Below are positions 967 to 50,367 of a stretch of DNA of 52,740 nucleotides, piece after piece. The stretch is from a virus: positions 1-52,740 of IMG/VR virus record IMGVR_UViG_3300025127_000054. One strand, 5' to 3'. Both the position numbers and the translations under genes were made by a program. How positions within the stretch are numbered: position 1 is the first letter of the stretch; every line of letters begins with the position of its first letter. The notes beneath the pieces are model-generated. The model was given only the letters and a program-made list of their open reading frames with translations, had not been told where the DNA came from and made no database searches.

Positions 967-984
967 TTTAACAGCACAATTCTA

Positions 985-1009
985 CTATACTAGCTATAAT
1001 AGTATAGCA
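985..1009 (-). promoter_or_regulatory. Sigma70-like extended -10 promoter within an inverted repeat
   Basis: On the minus strand TGCTATACT (1009-1001) fits an extended -10 element (TGnTATAAT). No good -35 hexamer lies at 17 nt, as is usual for extended -10 promoters. The -10 falls inside a perfect 8-bp inverted repeat, CTATACTA-7 nt-TAGTATAG (985-1007), which could be an operator. Transcription would start near 994 and feed the small genes at 966 and below. This is separate from the late-promoter system seen in the virion genes, and suggests early or middle expression of the left-hand unit. Confidence 0.45.
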
Positions 1010-1033
1010 CTTGAGTATGTAGTTTGGTATCAA

Positions 1034-4702: not shown

Positions 4703-4703
4703 A

Positions 4704-5510: not shown

Positions 5511-5516
5511 AGTTTA

Positions 5517-27161: not shown

Positions 27162-28391
27162 TTAACTCACTACGTTGATAGTTCCTTGCATTGCAGCATG
27201 GAGTGTACACTGATAATACAGCGTAGAAGGAGCGTCCAAAGGAACAGTCCAATATAATACAGTAGTTCCACTACCAGATTGACCAGTAGTATAAGGAGTA
27301 CCAGTCAAACCTTGAGAAGACTGTATCCTAAATGGATGTCCTCCACCCTCAACACTATTATCAAATGCATAACTAAAACCTCTATGAACATAAAGTGTAG
27401 GGTCTCGGACTGCACCATTAAGTCCTGGTCCTGATATTAAGAAGTCACTACTTGCATCTTCTACAGGTGCACCTATTTCATACCAAGTTAATGGACTTCT
27501 AGTAACTACCCATGAAGTTCCATTATAGAATAGATTATCACCTTGAGTAAGACCTGCAGTGTTTGTATCCGTTAAGGCTGCTAATGTGGTAGTTAATGTA
27601 CCAGAGAAATTGACTGTAAGTGTGTCTCCTGAAACTGCAGTGGTAATATTTGTTCCACCTGCGATTGTTAATGTGTCTGTTTGACTGTCAGCAGTTGTAG
27701 ATCCTGAATCACCTGCAACTGTAGCAAACAAGTTAACAGAACTAACACCTGCGTTATCATCAGCAGGAACCCAGTTAGTTCCATTCCATTTTAAAGTCTG
27801 GTTTAAGTTTGGAGCAGTTGTTGTGACATCGACGTTTGCTAAGTCATCAATACCAGAATATTGTGTTAGTAGTGCTGCTCTAGTATCTCCAACACCACCT
27901 GCTGTTATATTAATGTTTACATAAGGTTTATCATCACCATCTACTGTGAAGAAATAACCAGTATATGTTGCTGCAGCAGGAGCAGCTGCAAGAGATGTAT
28001 ATTCGTTTTTATATTTTACTGTCGTCGGTAAGTCGATTGAACCGTCAGTGCCAGAGAAAGTGCTAGTAATGGAACCAACACCCAAAGTAAGATTACCAGT
28101 TCCGTTGGGAGCGATGTTAATATTTCCATTAGACGAGGAGATGATAGAGTTTCCATTGACATCGAGGGCAGCTGTAAGGTTTGTATAATCCGAGGGGAGG
28201 AATGTAGATCCATTATAACGTAATACTTGTCCTGCAGCAGGGTTTGTGACATTAACTGTAAGGGTTGTGCCATTACCTAATGCAGAATACAATTCTGAAA
28301 AGTTATCGTTGATCTTGTCACCACCAGCTCTCAGGGTATCCCCTGTGTTGTCGTTCGCGATTGTACCAAGACCTAGTGCTTGTTTTGCCAT
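27162..28391 (-). CDS. Structural protein with gp9/gp10-type N-terminus and cupredoxin-like C-terminus (409 aa)
   Basis: Residues ~8-42 carry NDNTGDTLRAGGDKINDNF then SELYSALGNG. This closely resembles the N-terminal motif of T4 gp10 and gp9 (TGDxLxxGGxKINxxF), which anchors those proteins to the baseplate. The middle consists of Thr/Asn/Gly-rich beta segments with W-x-G/NGT-W repeats typical of fibres. The C-terminal ~100 residues form a cupredoxin-like domain with potential copper ligands H352 (GGGHPF), C395, H398 and M401 (YYQCTLHAAM). It has its own late promoter 26 nt upstream and an AGAGGAAG sequence just before ATG. It is probably a short trimeric fibre or plug on the baseplate; the copper-binding role is untested. 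Confidence 0.82.
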   Translation of the reverse strand: MAKQALGLGTIANDNTGDTLRAGGDKINDNFSELYSALGNGTTLTVNVTNPAAGQVLRYNGSTFLPSDYTNLTAALDVNGNSIISSSNGNINIAPNGTGNLTLGVGSITSTFSGTDGSIDLPTTVKYKNEYTSLAAAPAAATYTGYFFTVDGDDKPYVNINITAGGVGDTRAALLTQYSGIDDLANVDVTTTAPNLNQTLKWNGTNWVPADDNAGVSSVNLFATVAGDSGSTTADSQTDTLTIAGGTNITTAVSGDTLTVNFSGTLTTTLAALTDTNTAGLTQGDNLFYNGTSWVVTRSPLTWYEIGAPVEDASSDFLISGPGLNGAVRDPTLYVHRGFSYAFDNSVEGGGHPFRIQSSQGLTGTPYTTGQSGSGTTVLYWTVPLDAPSTLYYQCTLHAAMQGTINVVS

Positions 28392-28416: not shown

Positions 28417-28424
28417 TATTTATG
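28417..28424 (-). promoter_or_regulatory. T4-type late promoter CATAAATA for the 409-aa gene
   Basis: CATAAATA overlaps the stop codon of the giant gene and lies 26 nt before the 409-aa start. The arrangement matches that at 22812, where the promoter sits at the end of the upstream gene. Confidence 0.75.
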
Positions 28425-31400
28425 TGATTATCTCAGGGTCTACTACTTCTTCACCATATTGACTTAAATCTGGTGCAGTCCAGTCATCTGGAACAGAAGT
28501 TTCAACTGCGATATCAGGATTTTGGTATCCAGAACCTTGATTACTCATTGTAACTCCACCAACACCTACAAGTGCTCTAATATTACCTTCAAAACCAGAT
28601 ATAGAGTCAACCCTTACAGTTGGTCTTGTAGTATAACTAGATCCACCAGATGTGACCTGTACCTGTTTAATAAATCCAGTTGTTAGTGCAGCAGTTGCAG
28701 TAGCATCTTGACCAAATACAGATCCAAGATAATCAAATGTAATAAGTGAGTTAGAAGATTCAATAACAGCAACTGTTCTATCTTCAGTTTCACCCTGTAT
28801 TCTAATGTTATCACCAGGTTCTACAGGAGGTACAATTTCAGCAGCATCAACGTCTGCCTCAGAACCAACATATGAGAACGCAACGAATGTAGATCCAAAT
28901 CTAGGAATCTCAGAGAATATGATTCTAGAACCAACAATCTCAAAACCTATACCAGGTTCCTGTATAACACCGTTCAATGAACAGATGATATTGTTCTCTG
29001 GTCTAATTGATGATGACTGTACACCATCAGTCAATGTCAATGAGTAGAACACATCATTACGTTTCAAGTTGAATGACTGACGTAATGAATCAAACTCGAA
29101 TGATATATCATCTAACTGTCTAAGTTTACCAACATAGAATCCTGTGAATGATGCTCCTAAATCAGGTGCTTCAGTAAACTGAATCTGATTAGAGAACGCA
29201 GTATATGCGTTTGTAGCACCTGGTGGTTGTAGAATACCATTGATGAATATCAATAAATGTCCTGCAGGATCTGGTAGATAACTTGTACCATTATTCTGAG
29301 ATAGATTAAAGGTTGTTTGTACACCATCAAATCCTTTGAATGATCTCTTAACTCTTGCTTTAAGATCACCTTTAGCAGAAACTGCTGCCTTATAATTATC
29401 AGTACTCTGAATAGCATCGTTAACATCAAATGTTCCTACAACATCACTTAAGTATGCTCTCTTAAGAGTACCAACAGTCTTGATATCTTGAACAGTTGCT
29501 GTTGCAGCACCCGCAGTTGTTACCTTAGTAGTAATACTTGCATAACCTTGTGGGAAACTTTGTACTCCATAATCACCAACAGTATCACCATTAGTCAATG
29601 TTCCTTGGAACTCTTGTGCGTAGATATAATTATTTGGAATATCTACACCTGTAATTATAGCGTAAGTATTCAAATCTTGAACACCAGATGTAATCTTATA
29701 AAGTCTATTTCCAACTTGGAATGTAGCAAGACTGGATATAATAGAAATACCAAATCTTATATTTCCAGTAGATGCAATCTTAGCACCAACTTTAAGTTCT
29801 AATCCATCATACTTAATAACATCAAGATACTGTCTAGAACTCTCAGGGTAAACAACAGAATTGACTTCAAATGATCCATTTAAGGTTGCAGTATCAACAG
29901 TCAATGTACCACCAGTATTGTCTGTGACAGCAGCTTCATTCTGTAAGAATGATCCTGCAGGTTGTGCAGTAACTGCTGATGTATATCCTTTAAATGGTAT
30001 ATTATCAGTAAAGGTACCTTGTAAATCAATAATATGTAAACGACTCTCTATTGCACTAATCTGAGCAGTTGTAGAGTTGTTTGCACCAACAACATTATCA
30101 GTAATTGCCCAAGGACCTGCAGTCACTTTAACATCAAGATACTTGTAGTTTGCATCTTCAAAGAATCCGTAAACAACACCAGTAACAGAAGCATTACCTT
30201 GTTTCTGTACAGTCTCGTTCATAGTATAAGGACCGTCTGTTATATCACCATCAATTCTAAATCTTTGATATACCTGAACAACTTTACCTGAGTTTTCAAG
30301 AATAGATTCAAGTTCACCATATACATTACTTGATAATCCATATGCATAATCAGCATTGTTCAGTCCACCTGAAAGACCAATCGGAATATCTCTTTCTCCA
30401 TATAACTTAGTAGGAATAGTAATACCATTTTGAGATGTAATCTGAGTATAGTATGTACCAGTCTTAATTTGATTTCTAATAATATCAAGATTATATCTTA
30501 CAAGTCTACCCATTGATTTGGTAGTATAGTTTGCAGCTTCAGTTGAATCATAGAACTTATAGAATCCTGCATTAGGTGAAGGTTCTGTAAGTGTATTATC
30601 AAGTGCCTGTTGCATGTATGTCTGAAGTGTATTAATAGCATACTGCTTGATATTATATTCATTATCAGAATAGAATACTGTGCCATCACCAGACTGATAA
30701 GGATCAAGTGCAGTCTTAGTAAGTTTAACACCCCAAACATATATTCCGCTAGTTCCATCACCTGCATATGACTGAGCACCTTGAGCATTATTAATAATAA
30801 TTTTATTAGATAGAGTTGTGAAACCAAAGGAGAATGTAGTTGTGATAAATGCTCTATACCAACCATTACCAAGAGGAACTACTCCTGAGGCATCATTAGT
30901 AATACCATTTTGAGGTGTGAATACAGAACCTATAGTTCCTGCAGTTAAATTAAGGTCAAAGAATATTCTTTGTACAGCAGCTGTTCCCTCATCAAGTGAC
31001 ATTTGGAAACGAATTGATGTGTATCCTGCTGCCTTAACAAATGCTGAGAATGTAAATGTCTGATTTCCAGTTATTGATTGTGAACCTTCGTCAAATCTTT
31101 GATTAGTTGCGTCAAACTTGATTGTGCCATCATCAAATGTGTCAAATGCATTTAAGTTAAAGTCTCTATTTAAAGTGTGAAGTGCAGTAGTAGTGCTTGG
31201 TACAATCTTTTCAGAAGTAATTGTTTGATCAGGAGCAGCAATACTATTGTTTACAACACTTGCTTCAGTAGCAGTCCAATCTGTTGCAATTGCTTCTGGA
31301 TTAGTAAAGAGGTTAGCACCTGCAATTTGTCCAGTTATATTAGATGTAAGAGTTCTAGCATGTGCAATAGTTTGTACGTTTGTTGGTTTGTTATACCAGT

Positions 31401-34400
31401 CATAACCTGCAGCAACTGCATTAACTACACCTACTGACTTAGATGTTCTACCAACGATAGTATTACCATTTGCCCATTGTGTTCCTGTAAAAGGTCCTAC
31501 AATCAAGAATGATGTATCTTCATTCCATTCTAATACTTTTGCATACGCACCATTGCTTGAATGAATTACTTCACCAACTGTATAGTTTCCAATATTACTT
31601 GTTAATGTAATTTCGTATGCAGTTGTCTTATCTGTAAGATCAGTTGCAATAATATCATGAACTAAATCATCTGTAATATCTGTAATGAAGGTATCATATA
31701 CCCATGAACCTGCTCCAAACTGTGCGTTGACCTGATTTGTAATTTCCTCTTTATAGTAGTTGTAGTTGTAAAGAATATGTTTAGTAGCACTTCTACCTGC
31801 AAGTTTAGCAGGTCCTAAGAAGTCAACTGCAATTTGAACTAACTCTTTAAATCTAGTAACTACAGTAGCAATATCAGTTGGTGTTTCTGTATCTCTATAT
31901 GCAGTTTCATCAGTCTTCAATGCAGCATAATCAGGTGCAGTAAATCCACTGTTGAAATCATATAATCTATTGTTTATTGCATACTCACCAATAACACCTA
32001 CTTGTGATATAGAGTATATGAATGCTCCCAATTCTTTTTCTACATTTATTATTTGTAAATTAGAATCTAAGAATGTTTCTAAAGCTGTTATTGTACTATT
32101 ATTACCACCAGTTTGTAAGTCGGATATCATTCCCTGAATAATATCAACTAAATTTGCTTGACGTACAACCTCAGTATTACCAGTACCAGGATAACTGAAT
32201 GCTGTATATTGTACAGTGTTTAATGAATAACTAAATTCTTCTGATGTTAAACCAGTTGCTTCTTCAGCGATATACTGTCTGTTGAAGTATAATCTATCAC
32301 CTGCAATATTAAAGTCATTATTGGTAGGTGCAATTAAATTATTGACTGCTGTAATTAACGAGTCAACCTCAGTCTTAACAGCATCAAAATAAGTAGAAAC
32401 TCCATTGCCAGGAGTATCCCAGTCACCTGTAATAATATCATTGGTGTTATCATAAGTTAAATCTCCAGTAATTGATTGTTTAATATAAATTGCAAGACGA
32501 TCATGAGCATATATTGATTGAACAGGTTGTAGACGAACATGTCTTAGTTCATTATTATTTCCAAGATAGAAGTTTGCTGCCTCTGTAGTTTTTTCATTAC
32601 CACCATTTTCAATATCATTAGCAACTGCTTGAACAATTAATTGTAAATCAGTCTTACAACGTAATGTACCATCAGTAGATGTACCATTAGCGTTTCTTGG
32701 CATATCTAATGCAAGATCTGGATAACGTAGTAGCATATCGTATGCTGTTTTATCAACAATAACACTAGCATTTTGACGAATCAAATATGCAGCATCACGA
32801 TATCTGTATTGGGTATCTATATCAATTTGATTTGTATAGATTAAATCAGTTGCAGCATCATGATATGATACTGGGAATGGTATTTCTTTAAATCCTTTTA
32901 ATCGTGCACCTGCAAATTCAGCAGCAGGAGATACAGCAGTAACTGTAGCAAGATGATCTGTAGGAGATGCAGTTATAGCATTGTTTAATGTATCTGTTAA
33001 TATGGTGACTAAGTTGTTTTGAGTTGTAATAACATCAGAACAATCTGATAATGAGTAGAATACTTTTGTAACTGCATTTGAATTAGATGCAGTCCATGTA
33101 TGTGTATACTGATCTTCAGCAGCACCTACACCAACATTAACTGTAAATGTGTCTGTAGTATGTGCACTAATTGGTAATACCTGAGCAGATGCAGGGTCAG
33201 TGGATCTTGGATATGTATGAGTTGTAGTATTATTATCTTTAGTACATGTGAATGATAATGAATTATCTGAGATAATTACAGAGTCTCCTGCAACATCGAT
33301 ACCATTGCTTGTAGCAGATACGAACGTATGTGTGTAATTACCACCTGTAGATACCCCATTAGCAAGTCCAGATGCAAACTTATGTGTATAATTACCGCCT
33401 GTCTGAAGAAGTGCTCTTGTGATTCCATTACTTGTTGCAGATACAAATGTGTGTGCGTAGTTTCCACCAGTAGTTATAGAATCAGCAGTAGCAGAAACAA
33501 ATATATGATTAGAAGTGTTTGTAGAAGGAGTGCTTGCTAATGTCTGAACTGTAATTGTGTCATCAGTAACATCAGTAATTGTGACCGCAGTATTATAGTT
33601 AGGATCAGTAGTACGAGGATATGCATGATCTGTAGCATAGTTATCCTGAGCACATCTTAATACTATTGAATTTGTAGCAATCTTAATTGCAGTTCCCTTT
33701 CTTAGATTATGACGACCTATTGTAAGTGTCATGAATCCTGTTGTAGGATTATAATCAACATGTGTAGGAGTAAATTTCCTTAGAGGTGATTTACCAACAT
33801 TGATGCTTAGTTTATTATAGTCTACATTGAATACACTTAACCATTTACCAGTGATAGGATCAGTAGAACGAGGATATGCTTTGTTAGAACTATTGCCATC
33901 CATTGTGCAACTAAATGTGACTGCACCTGATGCTAATTGAATCTTTTCATGTTCTTTAATCTGATGTCCATACTGAACAGCGTTAGTTGCTGCAGATACA
34001 AATGTATGTGCAGAAGTATCTGAAATTGGTGTACCATCACCATTTACATTGACTGTAATTGTAGTTGCAGTTTCATTAGTGATTGTTAGATCATAATTGT
34101 ATGGATAATCATTGCTACTTGCTCTTGGATATGACTTCTGAGCAACGTTGCTGTCTAATGTACATGTGAATACTAAAGAATTAGGTGCGATTCTAACTGT
34201 ATCACCAACACTCAAAGTATGAGATCCAATAGTCAATACCATATCACCTGTAGTAGGATTATATGTTGCATTGGTTGGAGTAAAGTTAGTAGTTGCAAAT
34301 GTCAATTCCATGACACCAGTTGCTGCATCATAAGTTGCACCAGAAGGTGTGTACTGATGACCTGCAAATCCAGTTACAACGTGAGTAGTTGTGTTAGAAG

Positions 34401-37400
34401 GTGTATAACCATCAAGAGTATTAATTGTGATAGTTGAACCTGTAACAGCATCAATAGGAACTGCCTGAGCAACTAAAGGATCACCCTCTATAATTCCACC
34501 CTTAATAGCAGATACGAATGTATGAGTTGTTGTATTTGTAGAAGGAATCTTATCTAGAACAACAACAGTGAATGTAGTTGTAGTTGGAACAGATGCTACA
34601 AATAACCATCTATTACTTGCATAGTCTGTAGATCTTGGATATGGATGATTAGTTGCATTATTATCTTCACCACATGTAAATGTAAGAGATAAATCTTGGA
34701 ACATTATTGGTGTACCAGTTCTCAATCCATGTGCAGCTGCAGTTGTGACTGTCATTACACCAGTTACAGGATTGTAAGTTGTTCCAGTTGTAGCAGTATG
34801 TCTATCTTGCTCTGATCTTGGATATAGATGAACTGTAGCATCACTATCCTGATCACATGTCATCTTGATAGAATTAGGTGCTAACTTAATAGTTGAGTTT
34901 GCTTTACTTACACCACCAGATGTTGCACTTACAAATGTATGAGCAGTGACGTTAGTGGAAGGAATACTATCTAAAACTTGTACATCAAATGTGTTTGTTG
35001 TGACGTTAGAAATAGGAATCCACTTATTACTTACAGCATCAGTAGATCTTGGATAGTCATGGTTTGTAGCATTATTATCTTGTGCACAAGTAAATCTCAA
35101 TGAGTTATCTGCAATCTTAACTTTCTCACCATTAGAGAAGTTATGACCTGCAATAGTCAATGTCATGATACCTGTTGAAGGTACATATACTGCATTTGTG
35201 ACTGTATGAGTTGTTGGAGCAGGAAGACTATGACTTCCAATGTTTATCTCAAGTGCACCTGTGGTAGCATTATATGTTCCTGATTGAGGTTGGTAATTAA
35301 CTGTTGGTGATTTACCAATATTAACTGTGATTGTATTATCTCTCTTAGTAAGACCGTTCTCAAGAGCAGAAACAAATGTATGAAGATATTGATCAGCAAC
35401 AGCACCTATACCAACATTAACTGTAAATGTATTATCTGTCTTAGCAGTAATTCTTAACCATCTTTGTGCGTATGGATCTGTAGAACGAGGATATGAATGA
35501 GTTGTCTTATTACCATCTTTAGTACAACTAAATGTTAGAGAATTTAATTCAATTCTAACTTCATCAGTTAGTGTAAGACCATGTGCATTACTGGTAATGA
35601 CCATATCACCTGTTGTCTGGTTATATGATGCATTTGTTGCTGTAAATGTAGTACCATTAGTCCAGATTGGTAATGATGTATTATAACCAGGATCGTCAGT
35701 TCTTGGATAAGAGTGTATAGTTCTGAAATTATCTTGTGAGCACTTAAATGATACTGCATCTTTGGAAAGTCTTAGAGTTTCTCCAGAACGAACCATTGAA
35801 TTAGGTAGTGCATACTTGAATACATGAGTTGTAGTATTACTTGAAGTACCTACGTTTACAGTAAATGTATTTGTAGTAACGTTGCCTATTGCAATCCACT
35901 TATTATAGTAAGGATCAGTAATTCTAGGATATGCATGATCTGTAGCATTACTATCTTGAGCACATGTAAAGACGAGTGAATTTACACCAAACATCACTCT
36001 ATCACCAACATAGAATCCATGATTAGCAATAGTAATTGTCATCACACCTGTTGATGGATTATAAGCAATTCCCTCAGGTGTATACTTCCAACCAGTTCTT
36101 AGATCATTGTCTCCAATGTCCATTGTTAAGAATCCAGTCTCACCGTCATAAGTACCATCTGTTACTGTGTAATTTACAGTAGGAGATTTACCAACATTAA
36201 CACTAAAGTTATTTGCATCAATTCTTGTGACTTCCATCCAACCTTGACCAGCTGGATCATCAGGACGAGGATAAGATTGTGATACTGTATTACCATCAGA
36301 TGTACATGTCATGGTAATAGAATTTGGTTTTAACTTTATTCTATCACCAGTCTGAATGTTGTGACCGTTAGATGTAATAGTTAAAACACCAGTGGTAGCA
36401 GTGTATGTGGCATTTGATGCAGTAATTTCACGAGGTGAAAGTAATCCGTGACTGGAGCTGGTAAGAACCATATCTCCAGTTGCAGCATTATAAGTTGCAC
36501 CTGTAGGAGTGAAGTTTACAGCAGATGGATAATCAGAATCTTGTAAAGTTCCATCATACTTCTGTGTAAATGAATGACTTGTATCTTGAATATCCCAAGG
36601 AACGTTATTAATAACAAATTTTGATATCTTCTCTACAATTTCAGTTGCAAATACTTCTTGTGGAACATCACCTTCAATAGTTCCAGTTGCTATTGATATT
36701 GGGTTAGTTGTTCTATCAATATAAGATGCAGATGTATTCCAAATATGACTATTACTACCATTACGAAGATCATCTACTAATGCTTGTATAAGAACTTCAA
36801 GTCTTGTCATAGCAACAGCATCTCCACCTTTAACAGTATGAGCAGGGAATACCTGTTTCATAATGTACAGTGCTTCTGCCTTTATTAGATCTTTATTTAA
36901 TAATATGTGATCAGCAGCGTTTAAGTATCTGTGTGTTCTACCAACAAATCCAGCTGGTGCACCAGTAGTACGAGATGTTGCTAATATTGAATCATTATTA
37001 AACTCATCTCCAATAGCAGGAGCAACATAACCAGACCAATCTTCAGTATATGTTTGACCGTTAGAACCATCAAAATGAATTAATAACTTAGCATTTGTAT
37101 CACCTTGGTGTATTCCAGTTTGAGAAGTAAATGCTGATGTATAACGGTTAGTAGCAGATGCTCTAAATTCATCAATATATCCTGTAAATCCATTAGCACC
37201 GTTATAATCCATACCGATTCTAATTGGTTTAGCAGCAAAGTTGCTACTATCAGTTCCAGTACCAACTTCAACACCATTAAGATATATCTTAGTAGTTGTA
37301 GAAGATCTAACAATCGCTACATGATACCAAGTGTTATTATTAACAGTTGTAGCACCAGAAGTTACGAGATCTGATCCATTTACATTATAACGAATCTGAG

Positions 37401-43400: not shown

Positions 43401-46400
43401 ATACTGTAGCATCACCTATAGCAAAAAGTGTTTCTTTAGGCTGGGAGAATACATTACTGTTTGTAGCATCCTTGAATATAAAGAATTCTAATGTCCAATC
43501 TCCTGCAAGTTTTTGTCCTAAGTCTGCAGCTGCAAATTTAATATTAGTATTTGTCCAAACGCTTGGTGCTGCTGTTGTTGCACCTAAGATCTTACCCCAT
43601 CCATTTGTATTGTCATAACTAAACGAGTCGCTTGTGCTTGTAAGAGCAGCAGTATAATGGGTTGTAGTATCTGTAAGAGCACTAGATGTGAATGGTATAA
43701 CAAATTCATTTCTATTCCAATAAGTCTGACCAAATACATGTACATCACCAGATGTATCAACATCTAAAGCATGTGCCTGTAAACCTTCTATATTATCAGC
43801 AGTAAATTCTGTAGTTGTATGATTCTTAATAGTACCATTATAACCAATCTTAAGAGTATCAATTGTTTTGTACTCATTAGTATTATTATCTCTAGTATAT
43901 GCAATATTAAGATCACCAAATAAGTCAATAGCAGACTTACCACAGGATGTAACATCTCTGCCTGGTGTTAGATAACGATAGTTCCAAAGTAAAGCACCTG
44001 TACTATCAATCTTACCAACCCAAACACTGTCTCTATCAGTATCATTTGCTTTTTGTCTACATGTAGCATTAATATAGATTTCATTAAATTCATCTATTGC
44101 AATGCTAGTGTCTATCATAGAATGTAGAGAACTAGCATAAGTATTGATCCAGTCAACAGTAATGGCATTGACTCCAATCTGACACTTACCAACAGCAACA
44201 TCAACATCTAAAGCGTTTGCTGTAGATGCAGTCTCCATACAGAAATAAACATCTTGTGAACCTGTTGCTTGGTTGTAATTACAGATAATATCAGTAATTC
44301 TTTCAGATTTATTTGAAGAAGCAAATTTTCTCTTAATAGCAAAATTACCTGATGTATCAATAGATGCTATAAATGCATCATCAGGGTTTACAGAGTTTGT
44401 ATTTGTATGTCCACCGATTATATAACGAGTTGCACTATACTTTTTAATTATTGAGATATTATCAGCACGAGTACTACCAGATATACCTGCATATGCTTTT
44501 TGGAATGAAAGTGTTGCACTTAGACCGTTTGCTGCCTGTGTATACTTACAAAGAATTATATCAGGATTATATGCATTAAGAATATTGCTATTTGGTTTGT
44601 TAATACCTACAACCCAAATATCATCACCATCAACATATAATGAATTAAATTCTGCGTAATTTAATCCACCAGAGAGTTCAAGAGTTTTTGACCATTCTTT
44701 AACACCAGTTGCTGATAATTTAGAGACGAATGCAACGACGTTGCCACTTGAGTCTTTTGTTTTACCACAGATGAATACTTCCTTGTTATCGTTAACGAAG
44801 GTATCATTGACTTTGACATAATTGTTATTATTAATGAATGATAGGTAGTAATCTGCTTTTTTAAAGATCTGTGGATGTGAAAGTATAACTCTTGGATTTG
44901 CTGAGTATCCAGAACCAGAATTAATAATATTAACAGAATCAATAGAACCTACAGTAGATACAACTGCTTCCAACTCACCATCTTGACCGCTAGTGCTATC
45001 AATGATGATTGTAGGAGGAATATCAGTATTGTATCCAGATCCAGTTTGTGTAATTTGTATTTCTTCTATACCTCTATACTGACGAACAGCAAACTGTTTG
45101 TTAGTATTATCCATCACAGGTGTATAATCAACAAATATACTGTCACCTGCAACTAAGTTGTGTGGATTAGAAGTTGTTAAAACACCAAAGTTATTACCAC
45201 TTATACTTTCAAAGGTGTAAGTAGCAACTGACTCACCTTTAATACGAGAAACACGTGCAGAAGCACCGTCTCCACCAGTTCCTGTATTATCAAAAACTAA
45301 ACGGTCATTTACCTGATATGATAGACCTGAGTTCTCAATAGTAAATCCAGTAACGTTAGCATCTTCAAATTTGTTAGTTGTTTCTACTTCAATATCAACT
45401 TTTGAGTCAAATCTAACTTTAGGGAAGTAATCAAATAGTTGTAAAGGTGATTCTTCAAATAACTGTCCAAGATTTGCAACATCTTGTTCGTCAGCATCTA
45501 TTTGTCCATCTCTATTAGTATCTTCTGGATCAAATAATAGTATTAGACCATCTTCAGTTGTTAGAGCATTAGTAGAAGCGTTAGGTGCTCTTTCAACATC
45601 AATATCAACATTTTCATATGGATCACGATATCTTACAACACCAGTTGGAATATTTTGCTGTACAGCACTTGTGCTTAAGTTCCAACTATCAACAACAGAG
45701 TTAAAACTAGGACCTAAGACATAAGGGAATTCTGGATTACCTGATTCAGTAGCATCAATAGTAACAAAATAACAATATCTACCTGTAGGATACTCAGGTG
45801 TCTTACAGAATCTACCATTATACTGGTCTAGATCACCAAGGTTAAAGATATACTCATAGTCTTCAACAAAATTACCTGCTGCCTCTGCACTAAGCAAAGG
45901 ACCTGCAGTTCTTACAGGAGTTGGATTAGTATCACTTTGTACAAGAGCAGTCTGTAGTCTATATGAAGTTCTTAGTCTTGTAATAGCAGATGCTTGATCT
46001 GTAGGGTCAGTATATCCATAAGGACCGTATATTGGGTTTCCATCAAATGCCCAACCAATAATAGGAGAGTGAGTTAACTGTGTTTCTTGTTCAGTTATAG
46101 TACCTACGGTTGCTTCTTGTAGGTTATCACCAAGAATGAAACGTAATTTTTGTGGATTTGATAAATGAGCATATTCTCCACCATACTGATTATTATATCC
46201 TTCAAATACTCCACCTTTAGCAGCGTCTAATACAGATGTTGCTTGTAAGTTATATGTCCACTTAAATACTGAAGGTGTAAAGACTGCATCTTGACCAACA
46301 GATGTCATATTAATAAGAGTAGTTCCTTGAACGTATCCAATACCACGGTTGACAATAGTAATACTTGTCACTCTACCTGCGTTTTCACCATCAGTGTCTA

Positions 46401-49400
46401 TGGTAGCACGAGCAACAGCACCAAATCCAACACCTTGAATACTAACTTCAGGTGCTGTAGTATATCCTGAACCTGCAGAGATGATAGCGATAGAAATGAT
46501 TCTACCATTACTTACGATAGGCTGGGCGACGGCTCCTGAACCAGAAGATAGACTTACAGTCGGTGCACTGGTATAAGAAGTACCACCATTGGTAATATTA
46601 ACGGTATTAATAGGACCTCTGACACTTGCAGTGCCCGCAGCACCAGTTCCTCCGCCACCAACAATAGTAATAGATGGTTGTGAAGTATATCCTGTACCAC
46701 CTGCATTAATTAGAATTCTTGATACAACACCTTTAGTAATAATAGCAGTTGCTGCTGCTCCTGAACCGCCTCCACCAACGATTGATACTAGAGGAGAAGA
46801 TGTATAACCAGAACCACCTGCTGTTACTGTAATCTCAGAGATAGAACCATTAACTATAACACTAGCAGTAGCACCTGTACCTCCACCACCAGAAATAGTG
46901 ATAACAGGAGGAGATGCAGCATCATAACCTTGTCCTGCATTAGTAATAGCAATACTGGTTATAGCACCGAAAGTTTTACTTTGTGTTGACTTATATGACC
47001 ATACAGAAACACCATTTACCCATGTACCAATAGGACCTGAAGAAATAGTGTTCTTTGTAGATATTGTAGTAGGTAATGCAGGGAATCTGTTTAATTTACG
47101 TTGGTTGCCAGGTAAAAGAGCAGAACCAGGAAAAGGACCTATAGAATAGTTTGGTATACCAGTTGATGCAACGTAAGTATGATTATCATTAAAGAATGAG
47201 TTTTGTATATTAGTAGTATAAGGACCTACTGCATTTAAAATTGTACTGGTATCAGACTTACCTTTGTTTAAGTCAACTGATACTAGAATATTACCCTGAG
47301 GTACGATCGCTGCAGGTTGTGGTAGTGCATACTGGAATACTGTCTCACTATCTCTTGATGTGACAGTAAATGTACCATTATAGATGATTGGGTTTGCACC
47401 ATAGACTGTAACCTGATCTCCAACTAACAAACCATGATTGTTAGCACAAGTAACAGTTGCAGATTGGTTATTTACACCACCAAATGTAACACCACTAACA
47501 GTAATCAGTTTTTTAACGTTGTATAACCAAGTTGTAAGTAAAGGAGATGTTCCAGTACCACCTAACTTAGAAACTGTTAGTTTATCACCTTGCAAGTAAT
47601 AAGAACCTGTGTCAGTTAGAGATGTTTGTTGTGCATCAACAATACCAACAACATTCATCACAACTTCTTGTGGTGTGTCTTTATTAATCTTTACTTGGAA
47701 GTTTGATGTAACTTCAGTAGCAGAATCCCAGTCCTCTACAACTCCGTTTGCTGAACGAGTACACTCAATGAACTGGTTAAGTGATTTTTCCTTATATTGT
47801 ACTAATTCTGCAGTAGCACCCGAACCAATTATGAATTCACCGTTTCTTTCTGGCCAACCAATAGTAGAGTCAACCGTAATGATTGAGTCGGTTTGATTTA
47901 ATGGTTCAGCAAGTTTTGTCTTATAAGGTACGGTAAACGTTCCTGTAATAGTTTCTTCAGACAGAACAAGTTCAAATATTTCTACTGTAGATGTTTTGAT
48001 TGAAATATAGTTTTCAACTAACGCAGATGCAGCTCTTACATTAGGATCCGCAATATCTGCTTCTTGTTGTAGAAGACCATCTCTAATGTCTGTAGCAAGT
48101 CCAGAAACCTTAGTTGCTCTTAAAATAGTATCAATAGACCATGTTGCAGCAGATGGTTTGATAATCTGATCTTTTGGATATGATATACTTACGGTTTCAC
48201 CGTATAATAACTTGAATAGATACGCAATACTGAATGATGTACCCTTTGCGGAGTAGAAATCTTTAATAGTCTTGATTGCTGTACGAACATCAATCTTTGT
48301 ATAGTCTAGTTCTGGTACATCGGGTAAGAACTGTTGTGTATACTTGTCTAATAAACGTTTTACAAATAATGCGTCAAGACATTTTACCTCTGTATCAACA
48401 GAAGCAGCTGAGGCAGTAGTATTGTTAGAGAATACTGCATTACCATCTTCCGTGTATTCTACGATACCAGATGCAGCACGTGCACATCCTACGAACTGTG
48501 CTTTATTATATTCCTTACCTGCCTGATTAACTTTAAAACCTGTAACCTCGTTTAAACCTATATCCGCAGACGCTTCAGCACTTGGAGGTGCTTGAATTAC
48601 AACAGAAGGGGGATTTGCAGCAGAATATCCAGTTCCGAACGCACTTACGTTAATATCTGTAATTGCACCGTTAAATATTGCAGCAGTTGCGGTAGCACCT
48701 GTACCACCTGCGTATGCTCCAGTACCATCTACACGTTTATCAACAATATAAACGGAAGGAACTTCATCATATCCGCTTCCTCCGTTAAGTATATCGATAC
48801 GAATAACTCTTCCGTCTCCGTCAACAACAACTTCTAGTACTTGTGCACCAACAGGATCTACAATCGCTACTCTTGGAACGGATGTATAACCTTGTCCTGC
48901 GTTAATTGTAGTAATAGATGCAATAGTTCCGTCTGCAGCAAGAACTGTTTGGAAAGATGCTCTGATTGGATTATTACCAGTTGGTTCATCAACATACACT
49001 GTAGGAGGAGTTGTATATCCAAATCCTGCATTTACTATTGTTAAACCACCACTAATAGATCCACTAGATAACGTCGGAGTGGCAACTGTAGCACCGCCAG
49101 GTTGTCTAAAAGTGATTCTAGGTGTAAATGTATATCCAGAACCTGATCCAACTAATTCTACACCAGTAACAGCACCATTAGTTACTGTTGCTTTCATTGT
49201 TGCCTGTGTAGATCCAGTCTTAGTTGGAGACTGTACCTGAACAACAGGAGGGTTTGTATCACTATAACCTTTACCACCATCAAGAAGACTTACACTCTTG
49301 ATACCATTTACTAATGCTGTTGCTGCACCACCAGATCCAGTAGTTGTGTTAATAGAAACTTTTGGTGGATATTCAAATCTATAATTACTACCATTTACAT

Positions 49401-50352
49401 TAGTTGAGATAGCAGTAAGTTGACCTGCATCATTTACTCGTGCAAAACCTTCCGCACCACTACCAAAAGAAGGTACAGGTGCTTCTATAGAGTATAATGA
49501 TAAAAATCTACCGTTTGTAGGTGCGGTAGCAAATAGAAAGTCTGCACCATCTATAAAGTAATCTACTTTGGGTATTAATAATCTTTTGTCGTATATTGCA
49601 ATTACATATTCATCTACAATTGGTTCGTATGCTAAACCATTACGTGTTATTCTAAATTGTGTCTTACCTTCACCAAAGGAGTTAGAAATATTATCGAGTG
49701 CAACAATCTGATTCTCTACAAAACCATCTAGGTATGTAATAAAGGTGTTTATAGCATCATCAGAAGGAATCTTTGTTCTAGGAGCAGTTGCATAGGTAAT
49801 AGTGGTTCCATTGACCGTGTAATCGGTCACAGGGGTCAATACCTCGCCATATACAGACACAATCAAATGTTGTGCAGATGGAGGTGCAATTGGATTGTCT
49901 TGAGATGTTAGATTAAACTGAGTAGTAGTGCCATCAAAGTCATTAATAGGTGTGGCAAGGTTAACAAACTTAAGTTTTACCTGATCGTATGAAATACCTG
50001 GTGAAAGAGCAATGTTTGGAGAACTGGTTATACTCTCATAGTAGATAACCTCATTACCTATAAGAATAGATCCAGACTCTTCTAAGAACTGGTCAATTGA
50101 CTCTACAACAATATTTTCACTATCTGCAGTTATTGCTTCTACTAATTTTGTCTTACCATCTAATATACCAACGTCTAACCTATCAATATCAAGGTATCCG
50201 AGAAAATTGTTTAGAATATTCTGCCCAAGACCAGTCTTCTCTTGAGATTGGTAGTAATACTCAAGAAATCTATTGAATAGTGGATAGTCAGACTCGATAA
50301 ATTCGGGAGTCTGGGCAACAATTGCCTGTGAGACTTTGTTGATATTTGTCAT
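28420..50352 (-). CDS. gp7: Giant gp7-like baseplate wedge protein with many inserted domains (7310 aa)
   Basis: This single frame of 7311 codons lies between gp6 and gp8, the position of T4 gene 7 (1032 aa). Segments resembling the C-terminal half of gp7 are widely separated: SDYPLFNRFLEYYYQSQEK (~20-40); DFYSAKGTSFSIAYLFKLLY (~690-730); and YYYQDFSYAVKS...ISEWKEILIKNVHPASF (~3550-3600). Other regions by residue: LNGxxQxPG modules (~115-300, ~3665-3735, ~6998-7161); GxGYxxxP beta repeats (~330-650, ~1125-1350); YHYH-like (~1420-1555); EF-hand loop (~1609-1620); propeller-like repeats (~1840-2217); LamG-like (~2285-2431 and ~4233-4438); helical DLxxGGN modules (~4471-4580, ~5848-5950, ~6056-6098); 11 Cys/YPR repeats (~4680-5720); CBM-like jelly roll (~6351-6548). 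It probably nucleates the wedge through the gp7 segments and displays glycan-binding modules outward. Confidence 0.87.
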   Translation of the reverse strand: MTNINKVSQAIVAQTPEFIESDYPLFNRFLEYYYQSQEKTGLGQNILNNFLGYLDIDRLDVGILDGKTKLVEAITADSENIVVESIDQFLEESGSILIGNEVIYYESITSSPNIALSPGISYDQVKLKFVNLATPINDFDGTTTQFNLTSQDNPIAPPSAQHLIVSVYGEVLTPVTDYTVNGTTITYATAPRTKIPSDDAINTFITYLDGFVENQIVALDNISNSFGEGKTQFRITRNGLAYEPIVDEYVIAIYDKRLLIPKVDYFIDGADFLFATAPTNGRFLSLYSIEAPVPSFGSGAEGFARVNDAGQLTAISTNVNGSNYRFEYPPKVSINTTTGSGGAATALVNGIKSVSLLDGGKGYSDTNPPVVQVQSPTKTGSTQATMKATVTNGAVTGVELVGSGSGYTFTPRITFRQPGGATVATPTLSSGSISGGLTIVNAGFGYTTPPTVYVDEPTGNNPIRASFQTVLAADGTIASITTINAGQGYTSVPRVAIVDPVGAQVLEVVVDGDGRVIRIDILNGGSGYDEVPSVYIVDKRVDGTGAYAGGTGATATAAIFNGAITDINVSAFGTGYSAANPPSVVIQAPPSAEASADIGLNEVTGFKVNQAGKEYNKAQFVGCARAASGIVEYTEDGNAVFSNNTTASAASVDTEVKCLDALFVKRLLDKYTQQFLPDVPELDYTKIDVRTAIKTIKDFYSAKGTSFSIAYLFKLLYGETVSISYPKDQIIKPSAATWSIDTILRATKVSGLATDIRDGLLQQEADIADPNVRAASALVENYISIKTSTVEIFELVLSEETITGTFTVPYKTKLAEPLNQTDSIITVDSTIGWPERNGEFIIGSGATAELVQYKEKSLNQFIECTRSANGVVEDWDSATEVTSNFQVKINKDTPQEVVMNVVGIVDAQQTSLTDTGSYYLQGDKLTVSKLGGTGTSPLLTTWLYNVKKLITVSGVTFGGVNNQSATVTCANNHGLLVGDQVTVYGANPIIYNGTFTVTSRDSETVFQYALPQPAAIVPQGNILVSVDLNKGKSDTSTILNAVGPYTTNIQNSFFNDNHTYVASTGIPNYSIGPFPGSALLPGNQRKLNRFPALPTTISTKNTISSGPIGTWVNGVSVWSYKSTQSKTFGAITSIAITNAGQGYDAASPPVITISGGGGTGATASVIVNGSISEITVTAGGSGYTSSPLVSIVGGGGSGAAATAIITKGVVSRILINAGGTGYTSQPSITIVGGGGTGAAGTASVRGPINTVNITNGGTSYTSAPTVSLSSGSGAVAQPIVSNGRIISIAIISAGSGYTTAPEVSIQGVGFGAVARATIDTDGENAGRVTSITIVNRGIGYVQGTTLINMTSVGQDAVFTPSVFKWTYNLQATSVLDAAKGGVFEGYNNQYGGEYAHLSNPQKLRFILGDNLQEATVGTITEQETQLTHSPIIGWAFDGNPIYGPYGYTDPTDQASAITRLRTSYRLQTALVQSDTNPTPVRTAGPLLSAEAAGNFVEDYEYIFNLGDLDQYNGRFCKTPEYPTGRYCYFVTIDATESGNPEFPYVLGPSFNSVVDSWNLSTSAVQQNIPTGVVRYRDPYENVDIDVERAPNASTNALTTEDGLILLFDPEDTNRDGQIDADEQDVANLGQLFEESPLQLFDYFPKVRFDSKVDIEVETTNKFEDANVTGFTIENSGLSYQVNDRLVFDNTGTGGDGASARVSRIKGESVATYTFESISGNNFGVLTTSNPHNLVAGDSIFVDYTPVMDNTNKQFAVRQYRGIEEIQITQTGSGYNTDIPPTIIIDSTSGQDGELEAVVSTVGSIDSVNIINSGSGYSANPRVILSHPQIFKKADYYLSFINNNNYVKVNDTFVNDNKEVFICGKTKDSSGNVVAFVSKLSATGVKEWSKTLELSGGLNYAEFNSLYVDGDDIWVVGINKPNSNILNAYNPDIILCKYTQAANGLSATLSFQKAYAGISGSTRADNISIIKKYSATRYIIGGHTNTNSVNPDDAFIASIDTSGNFAIKRKFASSNKSERITDIICNYNQATGSQDVYFCMETASTANALDVDVAVGKCQIGVNAITVDWINTYASSLHSMIDTSIAIDEFNEIYINATCRQKANDTDRDSVWVGKIDSTGALLWNYRYLTPGRDVTSCGKSAIDLFGDLNIAYTRDNNTNEYKTIDTLKIGYNGTIKNHTTTEFTADNIEGLQAHALDVDTSGDVHVFGQTYWNRNEFVIPFTSSALTDTTTHYTAALTSTSDSFSYDNTNGWGKILGATTAAPSVWTNTNIKFAAADLGQKLAGDWTLEFFIFKDATNSNVFSQPKETLFAIGDATVSTGGLHLYYDQSSAGPSGPLTMTITNSSTSINSAGSSLTSSQTNLYADNTWQAIAVTKSGDTFKAYVNGIEVLTGTISGTSLGAKDLYFGNIPGANGTLGQFRSNEQGQFHIDHLRLRNRAVTPTVPTDILALPTAGAYGLSYDWVDDAWFTDAMSRYDYIEYAGYGIKVDKPADAARLGNQGKKPNTGITFTRTAVTPVIGSPLTINVNGFALGDAGYQSLDFDDSTTTMTEDTETLSHVQDVWSSRTATVPSPGSQKLKVTAVVKDRYYFKVTPTIKIDNVQELTVNQAFNFSIGSKLVLKNDSGQFVNSGYIIRKDDANNKVYLAVNNNAWSNDLNTGQLSTEQFNEQSSYGITGAIPNDINEITNYTFAEINNQTPGTFIINLDGFDLDGTIADIPATIALSAAGTGYPNTGDSIPTTTTNGEATGLIVNYTASGGVIQTITIGNAAGSGYKVGDEVVVTGGNGDAKFTINSCTGNLDSFATFKPYADADYSVRIDQVSGSSAYIVGSVVTIGSGAITWNADYSQATIAGLTGVLKITLVANLTKILQATAVANSDEVYVITSTSHYLSTGDMVYVDGNPTQTIGATSYDEYDGAFAVQTVVSPLEFTYKLKTAALTAPATSASDVSIFIKSPTLKMYYGHQYLFDLSHSSMAGGNLSFAKDNLYKLEYSFNSIERVGTPGVTGGGQPTPTVKLKVDRSIVTNISYYFDPSRTGTDSPVVPGSYLDVVDSPYNGTFEISSIAGATITKGADILKFPLANEPEGAATISQASYMTSSTKAVGSIGDIRIVNPGGFYTKLPIVSGITSSRQIERVQINAPGTEYAVGTYSGVSIGGDGEGGFVSITVADGTDAEGSTIPGQINNVVVTSPGKNYTTATIDINAIPGILGSGLTGSGAELVVVIPSAGTGASIFTSGTNVGKIKKLKNNNFGYDYPHDYTLRPEISFPINAQLTSTSILDSITITDPGTGYSQAPAVVITGGGGSGAVAEATIKNGRLDVIIVKDPGAGYSSTPTVALRSSFNYVVNLDLGLLQFAFPHGIANGAAVTLNVVDTGDGAEFPLASGAVGRLNSSTTYYAISGTANSLEEDQLKLAITAANASLGDALSFSNAGTGRQQVLTESFGGSATANVITSTFLEGELVYQGDSLDTATAQGFVSTNSGWQVGPRVLKIVDYTGDFAANQRITGVISKSSGIITDLKIARGVLEIGSITKTTGQFIDDVGKPSEIIQKIQDSYYYQDFSYAVKSSTSISEWKEILIKNVHPASFKVFGELNLNEYGFIPNKETFFQLTKSVELAQEAIVPNIQNFALVEPVYTEFNNTEVLFRQKRLTSSENILTSVVQRIDDISSLFDGERTAFPLQVNQTNIVANANQLMIVLNGIVQTPGTAFSIQQDSIVFVEPPQPPASVKYVNVTINLIQTVDLNFSNISGIFPSIGNTVVGTSSGARLTVTKVVGNVITGFITQGTFILPTAGGGGGELCTVSATGFSANIATRSVSLVIDPVSTSNFPDNADITAGTVFTGQTSGAAMTITSILGNTITGTISLSTFQANETITGTLATGSAAFSGTVYSVNGTVASGGLFIFNEQVSNFEGNTAKVERVNLQTGQETPLAQLRYTVGTSTTSIEVVAYRVDNTQADAVVPAGTFTLQNNYQFGSEIVKVTAVVQNSNSTTLTVVRAQSGTTAVSHQEDVPVYSTDISVTNTLTLSKTAGTYQSTPGLFDIQLNDYIIAAQSGVVAQVTASSVYQDPTTNEFIGQVNISPGSSFFGLLFNRITSQTYPNVVLDNIANSQVNIVNYTDNNTPFNENFPANEQINNYVIPYDNASGTIQEGEDIRNYKLEYGNSSGDFTAGEDAKIRKITFDNKKGTGFFVAGQNIRIGSVGSGEGTKAEVVGFSQARQTVYLGKIGRCQYNGQDIHSIAFAGNAQLSTASFKFGGSSLLLDGTGDYVNIASSSEFGWGTAAFTIEFWMNPGSGSISGTATLVDQRENATEVAARIYLEAAQIRYNVNGSDLVTSGATTVNNNTWYHVAIVRSSTTTKIYLNGVEVGTGTDSSNFAAKPIRIGMDYNGANGFTGYIDEFRASATNRYTSAFTSQTGIHQGDTNAKLLIHFDGSNGQTYTEDWSGYVAPAIGDEFNNDSILATSRTTGAPAGFVGRTHRYLNAADHILLNKDLIKAEALYIMKQVFPAHTVKGGDAVAMTRLEVLIQALVDDLRNGSNSHIWNTSASYIDRTTNPISIATGTIEGDVPQEVFATEIVEKISKFVINNVPWDIQDTSHSFTQKYDGTLQDSDYPSAVNFTPTGATYNAATGDMVLTSSSHGLLSPREITASNATYTATTGVLTITSNGHNIQTGDRIKLKPNSITMTCTSDGNTVSQSYPRPDDPAGQGWMEVTRIDANNFSVNVGKSPTVNYTVTDGTYDGETGFLTMDIGDNDLRTGWKYTPEGIAYNPSTGVMTITIANHGFYVGDRVMFGVNSLVFTCAQDSNATDHAYPRITDPYYNKWIAIGNVTTNTFTVNVGTSSNTTTHVFKYALPNSMVRSGETLRLSKDAVSFKCSQDNFRTIHSYPRTDDPGYNTSLPIWTNGTTFTATNASYNQTTGDMVITSNAHGLTLTDEVRIELNSLTFSCTKDGNKTTHSYPRSTDPYAQRWLRITAKTDNTFTVNVGIGAVADQYLHTFVSALENGLTKRDNTITVNIGKSPTVNYQPQSGTYNATTGALEINIGSHSLPAPTTHTVTNAVYVPSTGIMTLTIAGHNFSNGEKVKIADNSLRFTCAQDNNATNHDYPRSTDAVSNKWIPISNVTTNTFDVQVLDSIPSTNVTAHTFVSATSGGVSKANSTIKLAPNSIKMTCDQDSDATVHLYPRSEQDRHTATTGTTYNPVTGVMTVTTAAAHGLRTGTPIMFQDLSLTFTCGEDNNATNHPYPRSTDYASNRWLFVASVPTTTTFTVVVLDKIPSTNTTTHTFVSAIKGGIIEGDPLVAQAVPIDAVTGSTITINTLDGYTPSNTTTHVVTGFAGHQYTPSGATYDAATGVMELTFATTNFTPTNATYNPTTGDMVLTIGSHTLSVGDTVRIAPNSLVFTCTLDSNVAQKSYPRASSNDYPYNYDLTITNETATTITVNVNGDGTPISDTSAHTFVSAATNAVQYGHQIKEHEKIQLASGAVTFSCTMDGNSSNKAYPRSTDPITGKWLSVFNVDYNKLSINVGKSPLRKFTPTHVDYNPTTGFMTLTIGRHNLRKGTAIKIATNSIVLRCAQDNYATDHAYPRTTDPNYNTAVTITDVTDDTITVQTLASTPSTNTSNHIFVSATADSITTGGNYAHTFVSATSNGITRALLQTGGNYTHKFASGLANGVSTGGNYTHTFVSATSNGIDVAGDSVIISDNSLSFTCTKDNNTTTHTYPRSTDPASAQVLPISAHTTDTFTVNVGVGAAEDQYTHTWTASNSNAVTKVFYSLSDCSDVITTQNNLVTILTDTLNNAITASPTDHLATVTAVSPAAEFAGARLKGFKEIPFPVSYHDAATDLIYTNQIDIDTQYRYRDAAYLIRQNASVIVDKTAYDMLLRYPDLALDMPRNANGTSTDGTLRCKTDLQLIVQAVANDIENGGNEKTTEAANFYLGNNNELRHVRLQPVQSIYAHDRLAIYIKQSITGDLTYDNTNDIITGDWDTPGNGVSTYFDAVKTEVDSLITAVNNLIAPTNNDFNIAGDRLYFNRQYIAEEATGLTSEEFSYSLNTVQYTAFSYPGTGNTEVVRQANLVDIIQGMISDLQTGGNNSTITALETFLDSNLQIINVEKELGAFIYSISQVGVIGEYAINNRLYDFNSGFTAPDYAALKTDETAYRDTETPTDIATVVTRFKELVQIAVDFLGPAKLAGRSATKHILYNYNYYKEEITNQVNAQFGAGSWVYDTFITDITDDLVHDIIATDLTDKTTAYEITLTSNIGNYTVGEVIHSSNGAYAKVLEWNEDTSFLIVGPFTGTQWANGNTIVGRTSKSVGVVNAVAAGYDWYNKPTNVQTIAHARTLTSNITGQIAGANLFTNPEAIATDWTATEASVVNNSIAAPDQTITSEKIVPSTTTALHTLNRDFNLNAFDTFDDGTIKFDATNQRFDEGSQSITGNQTFTFSAFVKAAGYTSIRFQMSLDEGTAAVQRIFFDLNLTAGTIGSVFTPQNGITNDASGVVPLGNGWYRAFITTTFSFGFTTLSNKIIINNAQGAQSYAGDGTSGIYVWGVKLTKTALDPYQSGDGTVFYSDNEYNIKQYAINTLQTYMQQALDNTLTEPSPNAGFYKFYDSTEAANYTTKSMGRLVRYNLDIIRNQIKTGTYYTQITSQNGITIPTKLYGERDIPIGLSGGLNNADYAYGLSSNVYGELESILENSGKVVQVYQRFRIDGDITDGPYTMNETVQKQGNASVTGVVYGFFEDANYKYLDVKVTAGPWAITDNVVGANNSTTAQISAIESRLHIIDLQGTFTDNIPFKGYTSAVTAQPAGSFLQNEAAVTDNTGGTLTVDTATLNGSFEVNSVVYPESSRQYLDVIKYDGLELKVGAKIASTGNIRFGISIISSLATFQVGNRLYKITSGVQDLNTYAIITGVDIPNNYIYAQEFQGTLTNGDTVGDYGVQSFPQGYASITTKVTTAGAATATVQDIKTVGTLKRAYLSDVVGTFDVNDAIQSTDNYKAAVSAKGDLKARVKRSFKGFDGVQTTFNLSQNNGTSYLPDPAGHLLIFINGILQPPGATNAYTAFSNQIQFTEAPDLGASFTGFYVGKLRQLDDISFEFDSLRQSFNLKRNDVFYSLTLTDGVQSSSIRPENNIICSLNGVIQEPGIGFEIVGSRIIFSEIPRFGSTFVAFSYVGSEADVDAAEIVPPVEPGDNIRIQGETEDRTVAVIESSNSLITFDYLGSVFGQDATATAALTTGFIKQVQVTSGGSSYTTRPTVRVDSISGFEGNIRALVGVGGVTMSNQGSGYQNPDIAVETSVPDDWTAPDLSQYGEEVVDPEIIT
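33190..36320 (-). repeat. Eleven-copy C-x2-D-x8/9-YPR repeat in the giant protein
   Basis: The core is F(T/S)C-x2-D(N/G/S)N-x4-(H)-x-YPR-x2-DP, followed by ITxVTxxTFTVNVG and THTFVSA. It is preceded by Y-N-x-T-TG-x-M-x-(L/I)-TI-x-x-H-x-L-x-x-G. Copies centre near 33215, 33615, 33875, 34130, 34640, 34815, 35055, 35490, 35705, 35930 and 36270. Spacing varies from about 180 to 510 bp. Extra THTFVSATSNG units occur near 33300-33490. The invariant Cys, Asp and Tyr-Pro-Arg are preserved in all eleven. Confidence 0.85.
37040..37655 (-). other. Second LamG-like lectin domain within the giant protein
   Basis: Residues ~4233-4438 show the concanavalin-A/LamG signature: SLLLDGTGDYVNIASSSEF, FTIEFWMNP, NNTWYHVAIVRSSTTTKIYL, NGVEVGTG, IRIGMDYNGANGFTGYIDEF and an LLIHFDGSNG end. 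This is the Laminin_G_3 pattern, often carbohydrate-binding in phage and bacterial surface proteins. Confidence 0.85.
43060..43500 (-). other. First LamG-like lectin domain within the giant protein
   Basis: Residues ~2285-2431 contain WTLEFFIFKDATN, LFAIGD, GGLHLYYDQ, NTWQAIAVTKSGDTFKAYVN, GIEVLTG, LYFGN and HIDHLRLRNRA, in the order expected for a LamG/concanavalin-like beta sandwich. Confidence 0.8.
43700..44830 (-). other. Propeller-like (SBBP-type) repeat region within the giant protein
   Basis: Residues ~1840-2217 contain repeated blades of the form (V/I)-x-G-x-T-x(5-9)-(D)-A-F-(V/I)-(S/A)-K-(L/I)-(D/S)-x-(T/S)-G-x-x-x-W. Examples are VAFVSKLSATGVKEW, DDAFIASIDTSGNF, and DSVWVGKIDSTGALLW. 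Five or six blades can be traced. This pattern is typical of SBBP/beta-propeller surface proteins. Confidence 0.65.
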
Positions 50353-50367
50353 TAACCTATTAGGTTA
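50353..50367 (-). promoter_or_regulatory. Palindrome covering the gp6 stop and the giant-gene ribosome binding site
   Basis: The sequence TAACCTATTAGGTTA (plus strand) is a perfect 7+1+7 palindrome located directly before the giant gene's ATG. In the transcript it can fold as UAACC-UAAUA-GGUUA. That pairs the only plausible Shine-Dalgarno bases (AGG) and includes the gp6 stop codon. Ribosomes terminating gp6 would open it, coupling translation of the two genes. Confidence 0.45.

Follow-up and report, generated by a model that had tools for sequence, protein, structure and literature searches.

The window analysed here, a virus record of 52,740 bases without any N, holds a very long open frame where gp7, a central component of T4-type baseplates, would be expected. 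This raises the question of whether a protein of 7310 residues is a genuine gp7 and, if so, how it came to be so large. A first-pass annotation of this DNA had proposed that a gene open for 21.9 kb stands in the gp7 position, that three segments resembling T4 gp7 follow one another along it, and that the protein grew by insertion between these conserved elements. We found its core observation to be real and its interpretation as a whole to be partly supported.

A continuous gene between gp6 and gp8

As shown in Table 1, the gene (hereafter giant gp7) lies on the minus strand, which had previously gone unstated, and the proposed 21.9-kb frame was confirmed, with 0 internal stops across 7310 codons. 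Its position was also as proposed, with gp6 directly before it and gp8 after it. The window's gp6 matches T4 gp6 (E 1.6e-25), and the gene directly upstream of the gp7 homologue matches the window's gp6 in all 16 other family members (phmmer E ≤ 1e-47), as do the gp6 proteins of T4 and V09. A gp8 match was located downstream in 14 of the 16, with none seen for pf16 and ACG-2014d in the analysed stretch.

Table 1. Features of giant gp7 and its operon neighbours (window coordinates; residues are those of giant gp7).
Feature	Coordinates	Strand	Residues	Remarks
gp6, baseplate wedge	50360..52348	-		directly upstream of giant gp7; PF21379, phrog_219
Giant gp7 (gp7-like baseplate wedge gene)	28420..50352	-		7310 aa, 780 kDa; P-SSM4 gp7 orthologue
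Core segment 1	50179..50337	-	6-58	helical; in 17/17 family members outside the T4 group
Linker-1 barrel, first half	50020..50178	-	59-111	
Nested insertion	48499..50019	-	~112-618	ends +/- about 5; beta-rich, G-x-G-Y repeats
Linker-1 barrel, second half	48382..48498	-	619-657	
Core segment 2	48100..48381	-	658-751	helices with KGT motif; PF23786 at cut-off
Linker 2 with large insert	39778..48099	-	752-3525	2774 aa vs 213 in pf16 and 103 in T4
YHYH domain (PF14240)	45748..46191	-	1388-1535	E 1e-32
Laminin_G_3 / concanavalin-like domain	43030..43539	-	2272-2441	E 2.2e-7, above cut-off
Core segment 3	39565..39777	-	3526-3596	QDSYYYQDFSY and HPA motifs; 119.5 bits
C-terminal extension	28423..39564	-	3597-7310	3714 aa vs 101 in pf16 and 20 in phiM7
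Second Laminin_G_3 domain	37159..37578	-	4259-4398	E 6.8e-23
Diverged repeat array	33205..36273	-	4694-5716	11 YPR motifs
Region matching head spike fibre Rcc01080 (6tb9)	30715..31083	-	6424-6546	phmmer E 9.2e-11
gp9/gp10-like connector	27162..28391	-		directly downstream of giant gp7; PF07880, phrog_677
Baseplate wedge protein, 1445 aa	22821..27158	-		modules common with giant gp7 inserts
gp8, baseplate wedge	21252..22784	-		PF09215
VrlC-type protein with DUF4815	14005..21252	-		without gp7 segment

Since the window is one metagenomic contig, the gene might be an artefact of assembly or annotation that fuses several genes. However, the same colinear gene is present in the cultured Prochlorococcus phage P-SSM4, whose gp7 (YP_214641.1, T4-GC 397; 7312 aa) has 90.1% amino acid identity over 7308 aligned codons, and as far as the comparisons reach the gene is no accident of assembly. 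Over 14,642 bases, which take in the initial ~12.2 kb of the gene, another IMG/VR contig (L016) shares 99.39% identity with the window. Residues 1-751 matched 290 IMG/VR relatives, and in all of the best 80, which we examined, the frame was open to the edge of the analysed DNA (71 passed a filter of >730 codons; the remaining 9, examined singly, were likewise open). In 25 of the 80 (22 of the 71 and 3 of the 9) the frame ran for ~4,080 codons, the most that the 10-kb flank allows. We give an artefactual fusion next to no chance. Purifying selection acts along the whole chain: relative to P-SSM4, dN/dS was 0.176 for the gene as a whole, and the 15 intervals into which it was divided (14 of 500 codons and a last of ~310) all gave values of 0.096-0.265.

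With tblastn, residues 1-751 matched 474 of 50,697 phage records and residues 3501-3660 matched 384, while none of the 47 bacterial or archaeal genome stretches fitting the search pattern encodes a relative. The name gp7 already appears in the records of P-SSM4, P-HM1 and B23, and the Bellamy protein is called 'baseplate wedge initiator'. The gene of P-RSM6 is annotated only as a hypothetical protein, the compact gp7 of HTVC008M as 'head closure Hc2', and the PHROG families of giant gp7-type proteins as 'head and packaging'; both head labels are probably misannotations.

The gp7 core and its match to T4

We built profiles of the three core segments from 12 family members, with T4 excluded, and ran them on 20 proteins. 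Segments 1-3 occurred in order in all 17 proteins outside the T4 group, of which the 12 used for building match by construction and five are independent (X1, Yut2, phiM7, Syn9, and S-PM2d081). The gp7 proteins of T4 and V09 showed segments 2 and 3 only, and no profile scored above zero on the separate C-terminal gene of B23. Against T4 gp7, segment 2 scored 25.6 bits at residues 730-758, a value reached by 0 of 2000 shuffled T4 sequences, and segment 3 scored 14.1 bits at 862-892, reached by 1 of 2000 (16.2 bits in V09 gp7). Segment 1 gave no sequence signal on T4 gp7, with 697 of 2000 shuffles scoring equally high. Hence, the three segments that the first-pass annotation likened to T4 gp7 are all present and in order, but two of them, not three, are backed against T4 by sequence alone.

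Compact relatives extended the comparison. A profile of 54 of them (from 67 complete ORFs), searched against 177,635 PDB sequences, had a single match below E 0.001, at E 3.9e-4, to the Klebsiella phage gp7 in entry 9f4a. The matching pieces lie in order at residues 663-680, 733-759, and 862-916, the piece for segment 1 scoring -2.3 bits and carrying little weight; T4 gp7 was not among the 14 PDB matches up to E 10. A profile of the giant gp7 N-terminus reached gp7 at E 0.11 only.

We also compared fold models with the PDB, in which entries 5hx2, 5iv5, and 9f4a contain gp7. The model of one compact relative (L158, 894 aa) was weak, with a mean pLDDT of 66. Its top two Foldseek matches were nevertheless gp7 (9f4a_A0, E 1.1e-4; 5iv5_BJ, E 1.9e-3), with TM-scores below 0.1, as were its top three VIA-align matches (5iv5_BJ, Z 9.7; 9f4a_A0, Z 9.4; 5hx2_A, Z 8.5), whose Z-scores of 8.5-9.7 stand only moderately above a background where the first unrelated row has Z 6.2. 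The VIA-aligned span pairs L158 residues 2-612 with gp7 residues 636-856, with segment 3 outside it, and by this structural route the T4 counterpart of segment 1 would start at residue 636. Superposition gave an rmsd of 15.7-24 Å, and a value of 15.7 Å implies that the parts differ in placement. By way of the compact relatives and this structural match, segment 1 may be equivalent to part of T4 gp7.

The model of giant gp7 residues 1-770 had a mean pLDDT of 74 and was confident over much of the insert (77-92 over residues 301-620), with core helices mostly at 29-60. Searching the PDB with this model gave no gp7 match, and the matches listed concern the inserts. This result counts against the gp7 reading, although the core may, by analogy with T4, require gp6 for folding. 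The outcomes that the first-pass annotation named as speaking against it did not arise, with the structural match to gp7 being that of the compact relative and not of giant gp7 itself.

These results are at odds with published accounts. In the portions of the two papers considered here, T4 Gp7 is stated to be absent from pelagi- and cyanomyophages and apparently substituted by VrlC (PMC7029224), and gp7 is placed among the additional core genes of non-cyanophages (PMC3037559). On the first statement the giant gene would be an unrelated adhesin with VrlC in the place of gp7, and VrlC-type genes do occur in the same operons. However, a gp7 core positioned after gp6 is found in the family members examined, pelagiphage HTVC008M included. 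In the window, DUF4815 lies in the VrlC-type protein, residues 1625-1802 of which match the phi812 baseplate protein ORF65 (9euf, E 4.9e-50) and which gave no match to the gp7 segment profiles (best 0.1 bits), and DUF4815 was absent from giant gp7 at E 0.01 in Pfam. Replacement by VrlC is therefore very improbable, and we are highly confident that the core of giant gp7 is that of gp7.

Insertions that split the core

Growth by insertion between conserved elements, the mechanism suggested in the first pass, is upheld by the linker lengths in Table 2, and a nested insertion adds to it. The segments are spaced by 599 and 2774 residues in giant gp7 and by about 0 and 213 in pf16, and the second gap is 103 residues in T4. 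Giant gp7 would have grown at three sites, namely the two linkers and the C-terminus. Within linker 1, a small beta barrel probably came first, followed by about 507 residues inserted within the barrel.

Table 2. Spacing of the core segments in gp7 family members outside the T4 group (all lengths in residues).
Protein	Length	Linker 1	Linker 2	C-terminal tail	Locus
Giant gp7 (window)	7310	599	2774	3714	
P-SSM4	7312	599	2776	3714	
P-RSM6	8573	608	2777	4967	L010, L013; HQ634193.1, 103907-129628
ACG-2014d	6817	607	2795	3193	
Syn19	6483	599	2681	2981	
S-SM1	6180	598	2681	2679	
Syn9	6076	599	2685	2569	
P-HM1	4446	88	2316	1794	
Bellamy	4067	98	2196	1549	
S-PM2d081	3048	93	1560	1179	L181:1531-10677
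B23	2845	89	2106	433	L012:5047-16826 (two genes)
HTVC008M	1016	119	493	203	L007:7772-10822
phiM7	1006	1	781	20	L176:5986-9006
Melnitz	896	108	360	222	
pf16	523	-8 (segment profiles overlap)	213	101	
Yut2	503	28	242	65	
X1	498	27	240	62	

Linker 1 is ~90 residues long in P-HM1, Bellamy, and B23. When residues 112-618 were excised and the ends joined, giant gp7 aligned end to end with these three proteins. The summed score was 909, compared with 422 when the barrel was omitted and 626 +/- 23 (maximum 695) when it was shuffled 300 times. Joining residue 111 to 619 was the best of a grid of joins, and those a few residues off scored nearly as well (898-905), so the ends of the nested insertion are uncertain by ~5 residues. 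Several structural matches to the model of residues 1-770 treat ~63 to ~660 as a single domain, in agreement with a nested insertion. Residues ~112-618 are an insertion within an insertion, and the barrel is whole in simpler relatives.

We constructed a tree of the joined cores of 23 proteins, comprising the 17 above and 6 of the 54 compact relatives, with T4, V09, and the C-terminal gene of B23 excluded. The seven proteins having a linker 1 of ~600 residues formed one clade (support 0.994), within a tree where several deeper branches were poorly supported. A single clade makes it probable that the nested insertion was gained once.

Two relatives depart from this layout. In phiM7 the protein is elaborated differently, with no linker-1 insert, a long linker 2, and almost no tail. 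In B23, gp7 is encoded by two genes with a 4-base overlap, the second of which (1081 aa) matches Bellamy gp7 residues 2969-4065 at 41%; this is either a true fission or a sequencing frameshift. With the C-terminal part as its own gene in B23, a single continuous chain is not always required.

Most insert sequence of giant gp7 belongs to no named Pfam family. Searching six insert pieces against Pfam at E up to 1 gave sub-cut-off matches only, and residues 1-1400 and 1401-4400, used as sequence queries against the PDB, had no match at E 0.01. The recognizable modules (Table 1) include a YHYH domain, two Laminin_G_3 domains, and a stretch related to Rcc01080, a capsule-binding component of a gene transfer agent. 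The G-x-G-Y motif occurs 18 times in the chain. Two stretches, a YHYH-region and G-x-G-Y, are common to an insert and the neighbouring 1445-aa protein, at 50% over 56 aa and 47% over 55 aa.

Role of the inserts and comparison with known systems

Published proteomics places a member of the family in virions. Peptides of T4-GC969, the 6180-aa S-SM1 protein encoded directly after gp6, were detected in purified S-SM1 virions in 2010, according to the part of PMC3037559 considered. The corresponding part of PMC10665884 gives 91 unique peptides and 27.2% coverage for S-CREM2 ORF122, which lies directly behind a wedge gene and is a candidate counterpart of giant gp7 by gene position. As far as these two sources go, the data are peptides and silent on chain length, which would also fit a precursor that is cut into several virion proteins, as would the separate, overlapping gene for the C-terminal ~1080 residues in B23. 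We consider such processing unlikely, and one intact chain is likely to be present in the virion.

The wedge of T4 contains one gp7 and two gp6 per complex, with six complexes per baseplate. By analogy, the three core segments would form the gp7 part of a gp6-gp7 wedge, and six 0.78-MDa chains per virion would contribute about 4.7 MDa to each baseplate. It is probable that giant gp7, as the baseplate wedge gp7 of a P-SSM4-like Prochlorococcus myovirus, consists of a conserved wedge core bearing surface-exposed, partly lectin-like inserts. We infer that the inserts fold independently into mostly beta-rich modules that loop outward from this core, and several of them are lectin-like or fibre-like. 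They would most likely make up the baseplate's outer surface, touching host glycans, and may take on part of the work done in T4 by separate proteins.

On exposure and host contact of the inserts specifically, we lean only slightly in favour. The inserts may instead be mainly architectural, building an outer baseplate in replacement of T4 proteins that seem to be lacking here and having little direct contact with the host. The outer baseplate is the least T4-like region according to the part of PMC7029224 considered, and the modules common to the 1445-aa neighbour and the purifying selection on giant gp7 also fit an architectural role. However, the inserts contain lectin-like and fibre-like modules, and the lowest identity to P-SSM4 (79%) falls at residues 6001-6500 of the C-terminal extension, as might fit an exposed region. 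An architectural role is conceivable, and we treat it with some doubt.

Coevolution experiments bear on the reading of host-contacting inserts. In a chemostat study, as far as the considered part of PMC9910659 reports, an 'exceptionally large' hypothetical gene, S-PM2d081, mutated during coexistence with Synechococcus. This gene belongs to the gp7 family, with segment scores of 55, 73, and 77 bits. The same account has 18 genes affected early, this one among them, so the link to the host is suggestive only. The portion of the main text of PMC6224464 considered does not name mutations in S-TIM4 ORF_101, a homologue of giant gp7.

We tentatively propose that nested insertions in one cyanophage lineage turned gp7 into a scaffold for accretion and the dominant mass of the baseplate, with this one gene taking over both outer-baseplate and receptor-binding work that is divided among several proteins in T4. 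If this is true, host range would evolve via module swaps inside an essential wedge subunit. Finding gp7, split by inserts, in myoviruses whose hosts are the ocean's most abundant bacteria fills a gap reported in the considered parts of PMC3037559 and PMC7029224. At the least, S-PM2d081 also gains a gp7 identity; per the portion of PMC9910659 covered, this very large 'hypothetical' gene mutates under coevolution.

Among the literature listings searched, with full text confined to open-access papers, none describes a cyanophage gp7 that is giant or split. Already known were the size of P-SSM4 gp7, the longer P-RSM6 protein, and virion peptides of the S-SM1 homologue. The closest known system, P-SSM4 gp7, is an orthologue that follows gp6 in the same gene order, has segments 1-3 at nearly identical positions, and shows no difference of kind, so both the size and the position of giant gp7 were already in databases. 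Nor is giant gp7 the longest even within our sample, given the P-RSM6 gene. The proteins of P-RSM6, ACG-2014d, Syn19, S-SM1, and Syn9 share its linker 1 of ~600 residues, layout, and clade, but their C-terminal extensions range from 2569 to 4967 residues. Those of P-HM1, Bellamy, S-PM2d081, and B23 have the core and a large linker 2, whereas their linker 1 of 88-98 residues lacks the nested insertion.

At the other extreme, the compact relatives X1, Yut2, pf16, Melnitz, phiM7, and HTVC008M carry the same ordered segments after a gp6 gene, but fit all three into proteins of 498-1016 residues with short linkers (linker 1 below 30 residues in X1, Yut2, pf16, and phiM7). T4 gp7 (1032 aa; 5iv5, 5hx2) also follows gp6, resembles giant gp7 by sequence in segments 2 and 3, and is matched over residues 636-856 by the compact relative's structure model. 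In contrast to giant gp7, with its added residues between and behind the core segments, T4 gp7 has an extra ~630 residues preceding a core that lies within about 260 residues. The novelty of giant gp7 is therefore its split, nested design, the gene and its size not being new, and the family, graded in length between 498 and 8573 residues, is a resource on how an essential machine part grows via nested domain insertion.
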